A stretch of DNA of 22,146 nucleotides, from the IMG/VR virus record IMGVR_UViG_3300033571_003410, positions 1 to 22,146 of that record. One strand, written 5' to 3'. This document shows, in pieces, positions 1,457-11,847 of this stretch. The translations under genes were made by a program, and so were the position numbers. The DNA comes from a virus. The first letter of the stretch is position 1. Every line of letters begins with the position of its first letter. Below the pieces are notes generated by a model, which was given only the letters and a program-made list of their open reading frames with translations, searched no databases and had not been told where the DNA came from.

Positions 1457-1606
1457 AGTGTAATGGTAAAATTGGTAAATACGGCAGATTATTAAATCCT
1501 ATTTCGTAGTAATAGCATTAAGTACGTAGGCTCAAGGCTGCTGATAAAGACAAAACCTATGCTATAAGTAGTCTTATCACTGTAGGTTCAAATCCTACTT
1601 ACACTT
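1457..1606 (+). tRNA. tRNA-Leu-like RNA enlarged to 150 nt, possibly interrupted in the anticodon loop
   Basis: The ends form a good tRNA: acceptor AGTGTAA (1457-1463) with TTACACT (1599-1605), a Leu-type D-arm with AATTGGTA, and a perfect T-arm GTAGG/CCTAC (1582-1586 and 1594-1598) around TTCAAAT. The middle is far too long. GGCAG (1483-1487) pairs with CTGCT (1538-1542) as an anticodon stem around a 50-base loop. If 1491-1533 were removed, the loop would read ATTAAGG, giving anticodon UAA (Leu), with the junction between U34 and A35. The variable region is also long: GATAAAGAC (1543-1551) pairs with GTCTTATC (1571-1578) with one bulge. ATAGCAT (1512-1518) could pair with ATGCTAT (1559-1565), giving a pseudoknot. 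The leucine identity and the interruption are inferences; a novel tRNA-like ncRNA is the alternative. Confidence 0.45.
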
Positions 1607-2307: not shown

Positions 2308-2822
2308 AAGTGTTTGAGATAGTTGAAAATAATGTAACTTTAAACCCTGATATATTAAATGTACCATGTTTTAAAGTTATTTATGATAGAGATAAAGATA
2401 AAAATAAAATTAATGCTTTAAAAGATTTATCTTTTATTTATCACATGTCTGATAATAATTCTATTTATGCAGACTTTCCAAAACAAGAAAAAGAAAATAG
2501 AATTAAAGCTGATTTTAAAATAGAATTAGATTATTCTAATGACTTAGAAGTACAGGAAGCTATTAATACTTATAAAAGTTTTATAGAAACTCCTAAGCAA
2601 AGGTTACTTCAAGCTGCTAAGAATAAAATAGATGAATTTGCTGACTTTATGAATAATACTAAAGTAGATGTAGATTCAGCAGATACAATATTAAAAATAT
2701 TTAAAGATATTAGTACTACAATAGCTAACTTTGATAAGCTTGAAGAAGCTGTTAAAAAAGAAAAAGAAAGTAATAACTCTAAAGTTAGAGGTAATAAATC
2801 AATTTCAATGTTTGAGCAATAA
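2304..2822 (+). CDS. Conserved-looking phage protein directly upstream of terminase
   Basis: A 172-residue, mostly helical, highly charged protein. The stretch FKVIYDRDKDKNKINALKD (residues ~23-41) followed by FIYHMSDNNSIYADFP and then ENRIKADF is distinctive and reminds me of a family found beside terminases in Bacteroidota phages. The C-terminal half (IETPKQRLLQAAKNKIDEF onward) looks like long helices, and the tail is Lys/Ser/Asn-rich and probably disordered. Its position immediately before the large terminase, joined by a TAATG overlap, makes a small-terminase or packaging-accessory role conceivable. There is no clear helix-turn-helix, however, so this is only a contextual guess. Confidence 0.75.
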   Translation: MKVFEIVENNVTLNPDILNVPCFKVIYDRDKDKNKINALKDLSFIYHMSDNNSIYADFPKQEKENRIKADFKIELDYSNDLEVQEAINTYKSFIETPKQRLLQAAKNKIDEFADFMNNTKVDVDSADTILKIFKDISTTIANFDKLEEAVKKEKESNNSKVRGNKSISMFEQ

Positions 2823-5800
2823 TGATATTAAAAGATACAAGTAGGTTTCAAGAGGTTTGGTATAATTTTGTTAAGACAGGTAGTTATTGTAACTATACTA
2901 AAGATAGTTATGCTTATAAAGAATTTTGGCTTAGAGAAGATGATAGATGTCGTAATGGTTTAAAATTAAATGATTTATATATTCCTGGAACTTATTATTT
3001 TTATCTTAACTATTATCCTATATTAGCAAAAGATGAAAAGACAGGAAGAAAAAAACAAATAGCTCCAAGATTTACTGATGTAGATTTGGAGTATTTTACT
3101 ATTATAGAAAGAGCTAGAAAAGAAAAAAAAGGAGTTATATTAGCTAAACCAAGACGTACAGGTTTTTCTTTTAAAAACTCTTGTTTAATTGTACATGAGT
3201 ATAATTTTTATAGAGATGCTAAATGTGTTATAGGAGCTTATTTATCAGACTTATCTACTAATACTATGAGTATGTGTTTAGATGGATTAAACTGGTTAGA
3301 TAAATATACTGAATGGAAAAAACAAAGAAATCCTGATACTAGAACATTTGTAAAAGCAAGATATAAAGAAACTATAGATGGTATAGATATTTGGAAAGGA
3401 TTTAATTCGCAAATAGAAGTAGTAACTTTTAAAGATAACCCCTTCGCATCAATTGGTAAATGTATGGCAAAAGGAACTAAGGTTTTAATGTATGATGGTT
3501 CTTTTAAGAATATTGAAGATGTTGTAGTTGGTGATAAATTAATGGGACCTGATTCTAAAGAGAGGAATGTATTATCTACTACTATAGGAAAAGATTGGAT
3601 GTATGAAATACAACAAGAAAGAGGAATTAGTTATACAGTAAATTCTGAACATAATTTGTATTTGGAACAAAGATGTAATTCTAATGCAGTAAAAGATGAT
3701 GGAATAAAAATATTAACTCCTTTAGAATTTTTAAAACTCCCTAAATATAAACAACTTTATACTACAGGAATAAAAGCAAATCAGATAAATTTTAAATCTT
3801 CTGAAATATTAATTGACCCATACTATTTGGGTTTATGGTTGGGGGATGGAAATTCCTGTGGACCTGCAATAACGATAGGAGATAAAGAAAATGAGCTTTT
3901 AGAATATTTAGAAAAATTTTATAGTTCCTTTAAAGAACACAATATAAAAATATATCGTAAAAATAATAGTAATTGTAGCACTATTAGGCTAACTAAATCA
4001 ACATGTAATAATGAGCTGCATAACTTATTAAAATACTATAAGTTAATAAATAATAAACATATTCCAAAAGAATATTTAATAAATAGTATTGATGTAAGAT
4101 TACAAATATTAGCAGGATTAATAGATTCCGATGGATATAAAATTAATGATACTTATTACGAGATAATACAAAAAAATAAAGTTCTTGCGGATAATATAGT
4201 ATTTTTAACAAGAAGTTTAGGATTTTATACAAAAATATCTGAAAAAAAATCTACTATCAAAGGTAAAGATTGTGGAATTGTTTACAGAATTATGTTTACT
4301 GGAGATTTTTCTAAAATTCCAGTAAAAGTTAAAAGAAAAAAATGTAAGCATAAAAATACACGAACTAATCCATTAAGAACTCGTATAAAAGTAGAAAAAA
4401 AATATTATGGAGATTATTATGGTTTTGAATTAGATGGAGACCATTTGTATCTCTTAGAAGATTTTACAATTACTCATAATACTACAAATATATTTATATT
4501 TGAAGAAGGGGGTAAATTCCCTAACTTAATAGAATCTTACAATATTTCTGAGCCTTGTTGGAGAGATGGTGAAGATATGATAGGTATTCCTATTATATAT
4601 GGTACAGGAGGTGATATGGAAGGTGGTACAGTTGAATTTGCAGAAATGTTTTATAATCCTGAAAAGTTTAATTTATTAGCTTTTGATAATATATGGGATG
4701 ATGATAAATCTGGTTCTAAATGTGGTTGGTTTATTCCAGCTAATAGAATGAGATTTGGTAAGTTTGAATATGAAGGTAAAACAGTTGATTTAGTAGATGT
4801 AGATGGTAATTCTAATGTAGAAGCTGCAACAGCATCTATTATGAAATTAAGAGAATTAAAATCTAAATCTGGTGTAGATAAAGATTATAGAGATACTATT
4901 ACACAGTTTCCTTTAAAACCTGCTGAAGCATTTTTAAGAAGTGGATATAATAAATTTCCTGTAGCAGAATTACAACAAGTTTTAGGAAAAATAGAAAGTA
5001 CTAAATCTTATGAGTATGATGAAAAATATGTAGAATTATTTTTTAATGAAAAAGCTCCAAGAGGTGTAGATTATAATATTTTACATAATGCTAAACCTTT
5101 GGTAGATTACCCTGTAAAAGAAGTTCAAAGAGAAGGTTGTATAGTAGTATATGAATTTCCTATAGAATTACCTGATGGAACTACTCCACCTGAGTTATAT
5201 ATGATAGCACATGACCCTACTAAAAATGATGATGAGGGTAACTCTTTAGCAGGTATTCAAGTATTTAAAACTCATAGATATTTTAATTTATATGGACATG
5301 ATGAAGTTGTAGCAGAGTTTTATGGAAGAAGAGGTAAAGATGAAATAAATGAAATATTAGAAAAGTTAGCTATGTGGTATGGGTTATCTAATAAGATGTT
5401 ATTCTTTGAAAATGCTGTAGGTAATACTAAAGAATATTTTGAAAGAAAAAAGAAGTTACATTACTTATGTACACAACCTCAAACTATCTTTAATAAAAAA
5501 GCTGCATTTACTTCAACAGGAAATATTATTTATGGGTATCCTATGAGTAATCAATATATTAAAGCTGAAGCTGAAGATTATTTAAAAGAATGGTTATTAG
5601 AAGATAGAAATAAAGAAGGTAATTTAAAAAATCTTCATTTACTTAAATCCAGAATGTTATTAAAACAATTAATAGCTTATAATAGAGATGGTAACTTTGA
5701 TGCTGTAATGACAGCAGTAGGGTGGGCTTCAGGTAGAAGGGAAAGATTTAATATTTATGAAAAAGAAAAAGAGAGAGAAAATAAAACAAATAAATTAGAT

Positions 5801-5863
5801 TTTTTGATAAATAATAAAAAAGTATTTAATAATGGCAGCAAATCCGTCAGGGTCAGAAGTTAG
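2822..5863 (+). CDS. terL: Terminase large subunit with in-frame intein
   Basis: This is the packaging motor ATPase and nuclease. The reading frame encodes 1013 residues; removing the intein (residues 214-553) leaves 673, normal for a large terminase. A Walker A variant lies at about residues 109-119 (KPRRTGFSFKN). The Walker B strand with its acidic pair is IFIFEEGG at 557-564, just after the intein. The C-terminal RNase H-like nuclease shows HDPTK with Asp798, LFFENAVGN with Glu863 and FDAVMTAVGW with Asp960 as likely metal ligands. The protein resembles terminases of crAss-like and related Bacteroidota phages. It starts in a TAATG overlap with the upstream gene and overlaps the portal gene by 32 bases. 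The stop is TAG. Motor activity requires the intein to splice out, because it separates the core from the Walker B strand. Confidence 0.93.
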   Translation: MILKDTSRFQEVWYNFVKTGSYCNYTKDSYAYKEFWLREDDRCRNGLKLNDLYIPGTYYFYLNYYPILAKDEKTGRKKQIAPRFTDVDLEYFTIIERARKEKKGVILAKPRRTGFSFKNSCLIVHEYNFYRDAKCVIGAYLSDLSTNTMSMCLDGLNWLDKYTEWKKQRNPDTRTFVKARYKETIDGIDIWKGFNSQIEVVTFKDNPFASIGKCMAKGTKVLMYDGSFKNIEDVVVGDKLMGPDSKERNVLSTTIGKDWMYEIQQERGISYTVNSEHNLYLEQRCNSNAVKDDGIKILTPLEFLKLPKYKQLYTTGIKANQINFKSSEILIDPYYLGLWLGDGNSCGPAITIGDKENELLEYLEKFYSSFKEHNIKIYRKNNSNCSTIRLTKSTCNNELHNLLKYYKLINNKHIPKEYLINSIDVRLQILAGLIDSDGYKINDTYYEIIQKNKVLADNIVFLTRSLGFYTKISEKKSTIKGKDCGIVYRIMFTGDFSKIPVKVKRKKCKHKNTRTNPLRTRIKVEKKYYGDYYGFELDGDHLYLLEDFTITHNTTNIFIFEEGGKFPNLIESYNISEPCWRDGEDMIGIPIIYGTGGDMEGGTVEFAEMFYNPEKFNLLAFDNIWDDDKSGSKCGWFIPANRMRFGKFEYEGKTVDLVDVDGNSNVEAATASIMKLRELKSKSGVDKDYRDTITQFPLKPAEAFLRSGYNKFPVAELQQVLGKIESTKSYEYDEKYVELFFNEKAPRGVDYNILHNAKPLVDYPVKEVQREGCIVVYEFPIELPDGTTPPELYMIAHDPTKNDDEGNSLAGIQVFKTHRYFNLYGHDEVVAEFYGRRGKDEINEILEKLAMWYGLSNKMLFFENAVGNTKEYFERKKKLHYLCTQPQTIFNKKAAFTSTGNIIYGYPMSNQYIKAEAEDYLKEWLLEDRNKEGNLKNLHLLKSRMLLKQLIAYNRDGNFDAVMTAVGWASGRRERFNIYEKEKERENKTNKLDFLINNKKVFNNGSKSVRVRS
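3461..4480 (+). mobile_element. Intein with LAGLIDADG homing endonuclease inside terL
   Basis: A 340-residue insertion within the terminase frame. It begins with Cys214 (block A: CMAKGTKVLMYDGSFKNIED) and has the block B motif YTVNSEHNLYL with His277. It ends in block F/G, YYGFELDGDHLYLLEDF followed by TITHN, whose last two residues are the canonical His-Asn. The first downstream residue is Thr554, a valid +1 nucleophile. Between the splicing halves lie two LAGLIDADG-type motifs, LGLWLGDG (336-343) and LAGLIDSDGY (430-439), so the endonuclease domain looks intact. The host junction IGK|TTNIFIFEEGG rejoins a normal terminase strand just before Walker B. All splicing residues I can check are present, so it is likely active. 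Confidence 0.93.
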
Positions 5864-11226: not shown

Positions 11227-11847
11227 ATGAATTTAATTCCTGTATCAGGTGGACAAAAAATTAACCCAGCAGGCAGAGTTTATGGTAGATTAACTGTAAC
11301 TAAACTTGCTGGGTATATTATAGAAACAAGAAATAAAGAAAAAGGTACTACAAATAAAGTTGCTGTTTATTCATGTAAATGTGAATGTGGTAATGAACTA
11401 GATGTGAGGTCTAAAGATTTAAAAAGAGGTTTTACTAAATCTTGTGGTTGTTTACACAAAGAAACATCTTCACAAAATGGTAAAAATAATATTTTAAAAG
11501 GAGATGATAATGCTTCTTTAAATATGTTAATTACTCATTATAAAAGTAGAGCACGAGTTAAAAAGTTTGAATACAACTTATCTTTTGAAGATTTTAAAAA
11601 TATAACATCAAGTAATTGTTATTATTGTGGTATTAAACCTTTACAAAATGCTCAAACTAAAACTAAAGGATTAGCTAAAGCTTATTACCATAATGGTATA
11701 GACCGAAAAGATAATACTAAAGGATATAATCTTAATAACGTAGTACCTTGTTGTAAGACTTGTAATTACGCTAAACGTATCCAAACAGAAGAAGAATTTC
11801 TTATTTGGGTTAAACGAATTTCTGAATATCAGAATTTCTGTAAATAA
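11227..11847 (+). CDS. Free-standing HNH homing endonuclease
   Basis: A 206-residue protein with an N-terminal zinc-finger-like module (Cys50, 52, 54, then Cys73 and 75 in KSCGCLHKE), a form common in phage homing nucleases. The C-terminal HNH nuclease has Cys131 and Cys134 (CYYC), a core HNGIDRKDNTKGYNLNNVVP with the catalytic His region at ~155, and Cys175, 176 and 179 in CCKTCN. These nucleases cut a specific site and spread with their flanking sequence. It lies between the capsid gene and a strong terminator, with its own short A-rich leader. Its codons are ordinary A/T-rich phage codons, unlike the optimised capsid gene before it, which fits an inserted selfish gene rather than a virion gene. 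Confidence 0.9.
   Translation: MNLIPVSGGQKINPAGRVYGRLTVTKLAGYIIETRNKEKGTTNKVAVYSCKCECGNELDVRSKDLKRGFTKSCGCLHKETSSQNGKNNILKGDDNASLNMLITHYKSRARVKKFEYNLSFEDFKNITSSNCYYCGIKPLQNAQTKTKGLAKAYYHNGIDRKDNTKGYNLNNVVPCCKTCNYAKRIQTEEEFLIWVKRISEYQNFCK

Follow-up and report, generated by a model that had tools for sequence, protein, structure and literature searches.

What kind of RNA joins the acceptor, D- and T-arms of a tRNA-Leu to a centre nearly three times the ordinary length? The question is raised by positions 1457–1606 of the window, by which we mean the whole 22,146-base virus record analysed here. The terminase, portal and major head protein encoded in the window match PHROG families 6681, 6547 and 11589, and we take its source to be a crAss-like phage of Bacteroidota. 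An intein carrying a homing-endonuclease domain (Pfam Hom_end_hint, Hom_end) splits its large terminase gene (2822–5863), and an HNH/endonuclease VII-like gene (11227–11847) comes directly after the gene for the major head protein. The Rfam tRNA model matches exactly 1457–1606 on the plus strand (39.0 bits, gathering threshold 29, E 3.6e-5) and leaves about 80 central bases unmodelled. This covariance-model search thus recovers the boundaries given in the initial annotation, whereas ARAGORN, run on the window with default settings, makes no tRNA call at 1457–1606. The outer parts of the element are as follows:

1457–1606, plus strand: whole tRNA-Leu-like RNA gene (Rfam tRNA, 39.0 bits, exact span), missing as a unit in the relative L002
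1457–1463, plus strand: 5' strand of the acceptor stem, AGTGTAA, forming seven Watson-Crick pairs with 1599–1605 (sequence and Rfam)
1466–1482, plus strand: D-arm, Leu-type like that of the class described below (sequence and Rfam alignment)
1581, plus strand: U48, the partner of A15 (U in 166 of 169 class centres)
1582–1598, plus strand: T-arm, GTAGG TTCAAAT CCTAC, perfectly paired (sequence and Rfam alignment)
1599–1606, plus strand: 3' strand of the acceptor stem (1599–1605) and discriminator U73 at 1606 (sequence)

All stems of this shell are complete, as had been claimed from the sequence for the acceptor, D- and T-arms. U8 and G9 are present (sequence, tRNA numbering), the D-stem GUA/UAC has three base pairs (1466–1468/1480–1482), and the D-loop carries A14, A15, G18, G19 and A20a. 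In contrast, 102 bases lie between D-stem and T-stem, compared with about 36 in an ordinary tRNA-Leu, and they hold neither a normal anticodon arm nor a normal variable arm, in agreement with the earlier remark that the central bases fit no normal tRNA. At the anticodon position there is a stem of 4–5 bp with a 50-base loop, and no 5-bp stem with a 7-base loop containing U33 and an anticodon. The close relative L002, with a terL 93% identical, retains both flanks and the upstream tRNA-like element and lacks about 153 bases (~1455–1607) in one piece; the window gene is a clean presence/absence cassette. The element directly upstream, at 1383–1453, is a weaker tRNA-like match that stays under the Rfam tRNA gathering threshold (23.2 bits). 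Its CCTAC/GTAGG stem closes a loop of 6 bases, it is almost identical in L002, and it may be another non-canonical tRNA-like RNA.

Relatives were sought in IMG/VR through the shell. The first pattern, AATTGGTAVAYRC N75-104 GGTTCRARTCC, gave at least 120 matches and, among the matches listed, 94 of 104 distinct hits had 6–7 acceptor pairs (all seven in 85); the acceptor letters are absent from the search patterns. A second scan with the same shell idea and gaps of 44–73 gave at least 103 distinct hits, 98 of 103 with 6–7 acceptor pairs among the matches listed, and none of these 98 acceptor-paired short-centre members has a canonical anticodon arm. Since three gap sizes alone (50–52) yielded 28 contigs in the IMG/VR scan, the class likely has hundreds of members. 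Some ordinary tandem tRNAs also matched the patterns; they were filtered out by requiring paired acceptors and no canonical anticodon arm. Combined extraction from the pattern scans left at least 202 distinct centres of variable length that share a tRNA-Leu shell and have no canonical anticodon arm, which favours the option, already raised in the initial annotation, of a new phage tRNA-like non-coding RNA. The D-arm of the class is Leu-type, although the letters of the D- and T-arms were fixed by the patterns and their conservation is partly by construction; A73, which lies outside the patterns, is found in 73 of 93 members. One acceptor, AGTCAGG/CCTGACT, is repeated across many otherwise unrelated contigs. 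The shell is conserved and the centres are hypervariable, with no common sequence motif beyond the bases adjoining the T-stem; a multiple alignment of all members was discarded, since centres without sequence homology cannot be aligned meaningfully. In some contigs (e.g., L311 and L287) the same shell occurs two or three times, each time around an unrelated centre, and in one of the L287 copies the centre has only about 34 bases.

The window element has the paired acceptor, Leu-type D-arm, U48 and T-arm of this class and likewise no canonical anticodon arm; its U73 deviates from the class norm. Within this large group of phage RNAs, which combine a single shell with hypervariable, pseudoknotted centres, it counts as a diverged member. 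We consider it likely that the element is an RNA of this phage class in both identity and architecture, with the acceptor, D- and T-arms and the tertiary core of tRNA-Leu and a pseudoknot in the anticodon/variable region.

The pseudoknot was examined with an automatic topology search for a variable-arm helix plus a crossing helix, with an optional hairpin at the anticodon position. The best topology in the window element consists of exactly the helices proposed in the initial annotation:

1484–1487, plus strand: 5' strand of hairpin A, GCAG, at the anticodon-stem position, paired with 1538–1541 (best topology)
1512–1518, plus strand: 5' strand of crossing helix K, ATAGCAT, in the loop of hairpin A, paired with 1559–1565
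1538–1541, plus strand: 3' strand of hairpin A, CTGC (best topology)
1542–1551, plus strand: 5' strand of variable-arm helix V, TGATAAAGAC, with A1548 bulged, paired with 1571–1579
1559–1565, plus strand: 3' strand of crossing helix K, ATGCTAT, in the V loop, paired with 1512–1518
1571–1579, plus strand: 3' strand of variable-arm helix V, GTCTTATCA, which stops two positions before U48, the peak register of the class

Helix V can be written TGATAA(a)GAC/GTCTTATCA, of which the automatic search recovers the outer six pairs; the oversized variable arm noted earlier is thus present and in the class register. With U48, this register and the crossing helix, the element fits the class plan. As judged from this one sequence alone, support for the pseudoknot is only moderately significant: the full topology is equalled or bettered by 23 of 1000 dinucleotide shuffles of the element and equalled by 0 of 25 shuffles in a smaller class-wide test, and helix K alone is equalled by 65 of 1000 loop shuffles. 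Stronger evidence comes from the relatives in the class than from the element itself. The same topology occurs in unrelated members, with crossing helices ATGTATT/AATACAT in L092 and AACGTG/CACGTT in L242. An alternative outer helix, 1486–1493/1567–1574, offers eight pairs by eye but ends seven positions short of U48, off the class register, and is therefore less likely than the variable arm first proposed.

A tRNA-Leu-like gene with additional bases in its anticodon loop recalls the group I introns of tRNA-Leu(UAA), and a remnant or unusual intron was among the initial readings. In this scenario the gene would encode a pre-tRNA-Leu(UAA) interrupted between U34 and A35 by an intron that is tiny or degenerate, and splicing would yield a decoding tRNA. 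GCAG/CTGC could then serve as the anticodon stem, and removal of 1491–1533 joins ATT to AAGG in a 7-base loop with UAA; moreover, group I introns can be abundant in crAss-like phages (PMC7886860). Nevertheless, the supposed insertion has 43 bases and no match to a group I catalytic core, and the group I covariance model (Rfam Intron_gpI) finds nothing at 1457–1606 even at E<=1. ARAGORN still calls no tRNA once 1491–1533 is removed, and its intron mode settles on another 'intron', 62 bases long, and on an Asn anticodon. The supposed intron contains one strand of the pseudoknot, so that its bases join the fold, and compact class members have a 7–8-base loop that itself pairs in the crossing helix (e.g., L242), with no intact anticodon arm hidden in the class. 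Furthermore, L002 lacks the whole gene and not just the insert. An intron is thus highly improbable, and the UAA at the junction is most simply taken as a chance occurrence, because no canonical anticodon arm occurs in the 98 short-centre members.

Evidence that the class fold is maintained comes from 169 non-redundant centres. Of these, 166 have U at position 48, against a T background of 25%. In 63 of 169 the variable-arm helix stops two positions short of U48, with 15–32 at other offsets, and it is a stronger helix than shuffles give (mean -7.3 vs. -4.6). For the full topology the means are -13.8 and -7.2, respectively, and 55 of the 169 members have a topology that no more than one of 25 shuffles equals, where about 13 such members are expected by chance; an earlier test without a fixed variable-arm register gave a weaker result. 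Compensatory changes are found in several small families. In L263/L323/L334 both sides have changed in three of six variable-arm pairs, and 97.9% of cells pair, compared with 31–54% when slid. In L103/L117/L167 there is a double change in each of the hairpin, crossing helix and variable arm, and 98% pair vs. 24–49% when slid. Further cases are L280/306/344, L123/173, L249/259 and L243/311, and other members compared have broken or gapped pairs or no change; given the small families, each case of covariation is modest on its own. The compensatory changes called for in homologues are thus seen in class families, but not for the centre of the window element: neither two scans of IMG/VR nor a GenBank phage BLAST gave a close homologue, so its pseudoknot is left without covariation of its own. 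Across the class, acceptor pairing, U48 and helix compensation together point to selection. This bears on the possibility that the locus is a decayed tRNA pseudogene or functionless recombination relic, as its presence or absence between close relatives, its U73 and its missing anticodon arm might suggest. The seven acceptor pairs, T-arm and D-arm of the window element are nevertheless all perfect, and with the signs of selection in the class we regard decay as very unlikely.

The class is essentially viral, occurs in many different phages and is all but missing from the searched bacterial genomes. A search of 84,980 bacterial and archaeal genomes returned 29 pattern hits, most of which were rejected as tandem or duplicated ordinary tRNA-Leu genes or masked stretches. 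Convincing members were found in Bacteroides graminisolvens, Dysgonomonas macrotermitis, Parabacteroides, Draconibacterium, Taibaiella, Chlorobiaceae and two Prochloron assemblies. Two belong to cultured strains, B. graminisolvens DSM 19988 (L230) and D. macrotermitis DSM 27370 (L214), and have the same centres as the viral contigs L155 and L197; the class is open to testing in such strains. Among 393 Bacteroidales genomes only the seed matched, the 392 others giving no match, and GenBank phages yielded few candidates. Two members, L252 and L200, are on contigs with distant homologues of the terminase and/or portal of the window phage. An ordinary tRNA lies within 1 kb of 63 of 203 elements. 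No conserved neighbour gene was found, the commonest family occurring at 5 loci only, and hence context gives no functional hint. Existing tools mostly pass over these genes: ARAGORN reports no tRNA-Leu around 112 of 120 first-scan hits (among the matches listed), and Rfam at gathering thresholds misses the members in eight sampled loci (L092, L098, L123, L197, L230, L242, L280 and L294).

What such an RNA might do is suggested by the parts that are kept. With the anticodon arm replaced or locked by a pseudoknot with the enlarged variable arm, the window RNA is probably unable to read codons. Leucylation in E. coli needs A73, the A15–U48 pair, G18G19, A20a and D-loop/T-loop contacts; neither the anticodon nor the sequence or folding of the variable arm is a determinant for E. 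coli LeuRS, and variants without both arms are active (PMC9976931). The class keeps this set and drops the anticodon arm, A15, G18G19 and A20a being retained partly by construction of the search. In the window element A15–U48, G18G19 and A20a are all present, but U1606 takes the place of A73, which makes its own charging doubtful. We put forward that the class RNAs, presumably expressed, would be treated like tRNAs by the host maturation enzymes (RNase P, 3' processing, CCA addition), and that a LeuRS blind to the anticodon would charge most of them, to judge from the conserved determinants. The unreadable charged product could then engage tRNA-handling proteins during infection, either as a decoy or as an alternative substrate, host tRNA-targeting defence enzymes being the likeliest target. 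A decoy function, taken on its own, is a tentative proposal. The same caution applies to the broader reading of a large virus-specific class of leucine-accepting, non-decoding tRNA mimics in which a rapidly evolving pseudoknot stands in for the anticodon arm of a retained tRNA-Leu core, for example decoys for host tRNA-targeting immune enzymes, with the rapid change in the centres reflecting an arms race: we hold it as possible, somewhat short of an even chance.

The main rival to the decoy or mimic reading is that the tRNA shell is a processing or stability scaffold for a variable payload, antisense or protein-binding, and resembles a tRNA for maturation only. The hypervariable centres within a conserved shell would suit this, as would the several copies per phage with one shell and unrelated centres. 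However, the shortest centres (34–46 bases) are nearly all helix and offer little room for a payload, and U48 and A73 are kept although maturation through the acceptor and T-arm is not known to need either. A scaffold therefore fits less well than a mimic, and we judge it unlikely. The tmRNAs provide another comparison: they have a tRNA-like domain that is charged without an anticodon, and they contain pseudoknots, so a reduced tmRNA-like RNA acting in ribosome rescue might be imagined. In contrast to tmRNA, the window shell is Leu- and not Ala-type with a full D-stem, the element is far shorter, neither ARAGORN nor Rfam gives a tmRNA match or tag reading frame for it, and class centres of 34–46 bases are too short for a tag frame; this reading is extremely improbable.

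Returning to the preferred reading of a non-decoding tRNA-Leu mimic, the element shares with bacterial (class II) tRNA-Leu the acceptor, the D-arm with A14, A15, G18, G19 and A20a, U48, a long variable arm and the T-arm, and differs in having no canonical anticodon arm, in the pairing of the anticodon side into the variable-arm loop and, in the window, in U73. Among viral tRNA mimics, the TYMV- and BMV-type structures of plant viruses lie at the 3' ends of RNA virus genomes and have Val, Tyr or His identity. They too rely on a pseudoknot (PMC9976931), although theirs is in the acceptor, whereas here a separate Leu-type gene of DNA phages has it in the anticodon/variable region. Allo-tRNAs and other non-canonical tRNAs are likewise unusual genes from metagenomes, but keep the anticodon, and the review that covers them mentions neither phages nor pseudoknots (PMC7609411). 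Phage T4 species 1 RNA (rnaC) is also a stable phage RNA, of about 140 bases, with a T-arm end and annotated beside a tRNA cluster; by eye it has no Leu-type D-arm or matching acceptor stem, and with the T-arm alone similar it was rejected as a relative. The bacterial Y RNAs (YrlA) were considered as well, and no Rfam Y RNA family matches the window element at E<=1. In the open-access journal literature searched, no description of such an RNA class was found, and it is apparently undescribed so far. Viral tRNA mimicry itself is already known; there is a real chance that this is a distinct new RNA class. If so, hundreds of phage tRNA mimics would have been mostly overlooked by ARAGORN, and by Rfam in all sampled IMG/VR and genome members. 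They may carry leucine yet not decode, and would give DNA phages an equivalent of the tRNA-like structures of plant viruses and a candidate countermeasure against immunity by tRNA cleavage; oversized 'tRNA-Leu' hits in viromes should not be dismissed as pseudogenes or introns.

Several further elements were observed along the way. In crAssphage cr4_1 (L352), an unannotated stretch at about 1295–1525 has, by eye, a tmRNA-like start, GGTTTTGACAGCG, and a tag-like frame, NTSYVMDYTRLAA-stop; behind it lies a further unusual tRNA-like element that closes with a T-arm, and neither is reported by ARAGORN or by Rfam at gathering thresholds. In Enterobacter phage SonariX (L355), an unannotated possible tRNA-like RNA of about 100 bases (~634–736), closed by TTCAGAGTG/CACTCTGAA, follows a tRNA cluster; ARAGORN makes no call for this RNA. 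The cultured Sulfitobacter phage phiCB2047-B (L353) has an unannotated possible member at about 1494–1588, with a Leu-type D-arm and T-arm, a short centre and imperfect acceptor pairing. Finally, the elements of the Prochloron genomes (L205 and L219, assemblies of a cyanobacterial symbiont) are tRNA-Leu-like with a similarly enlarged centre.
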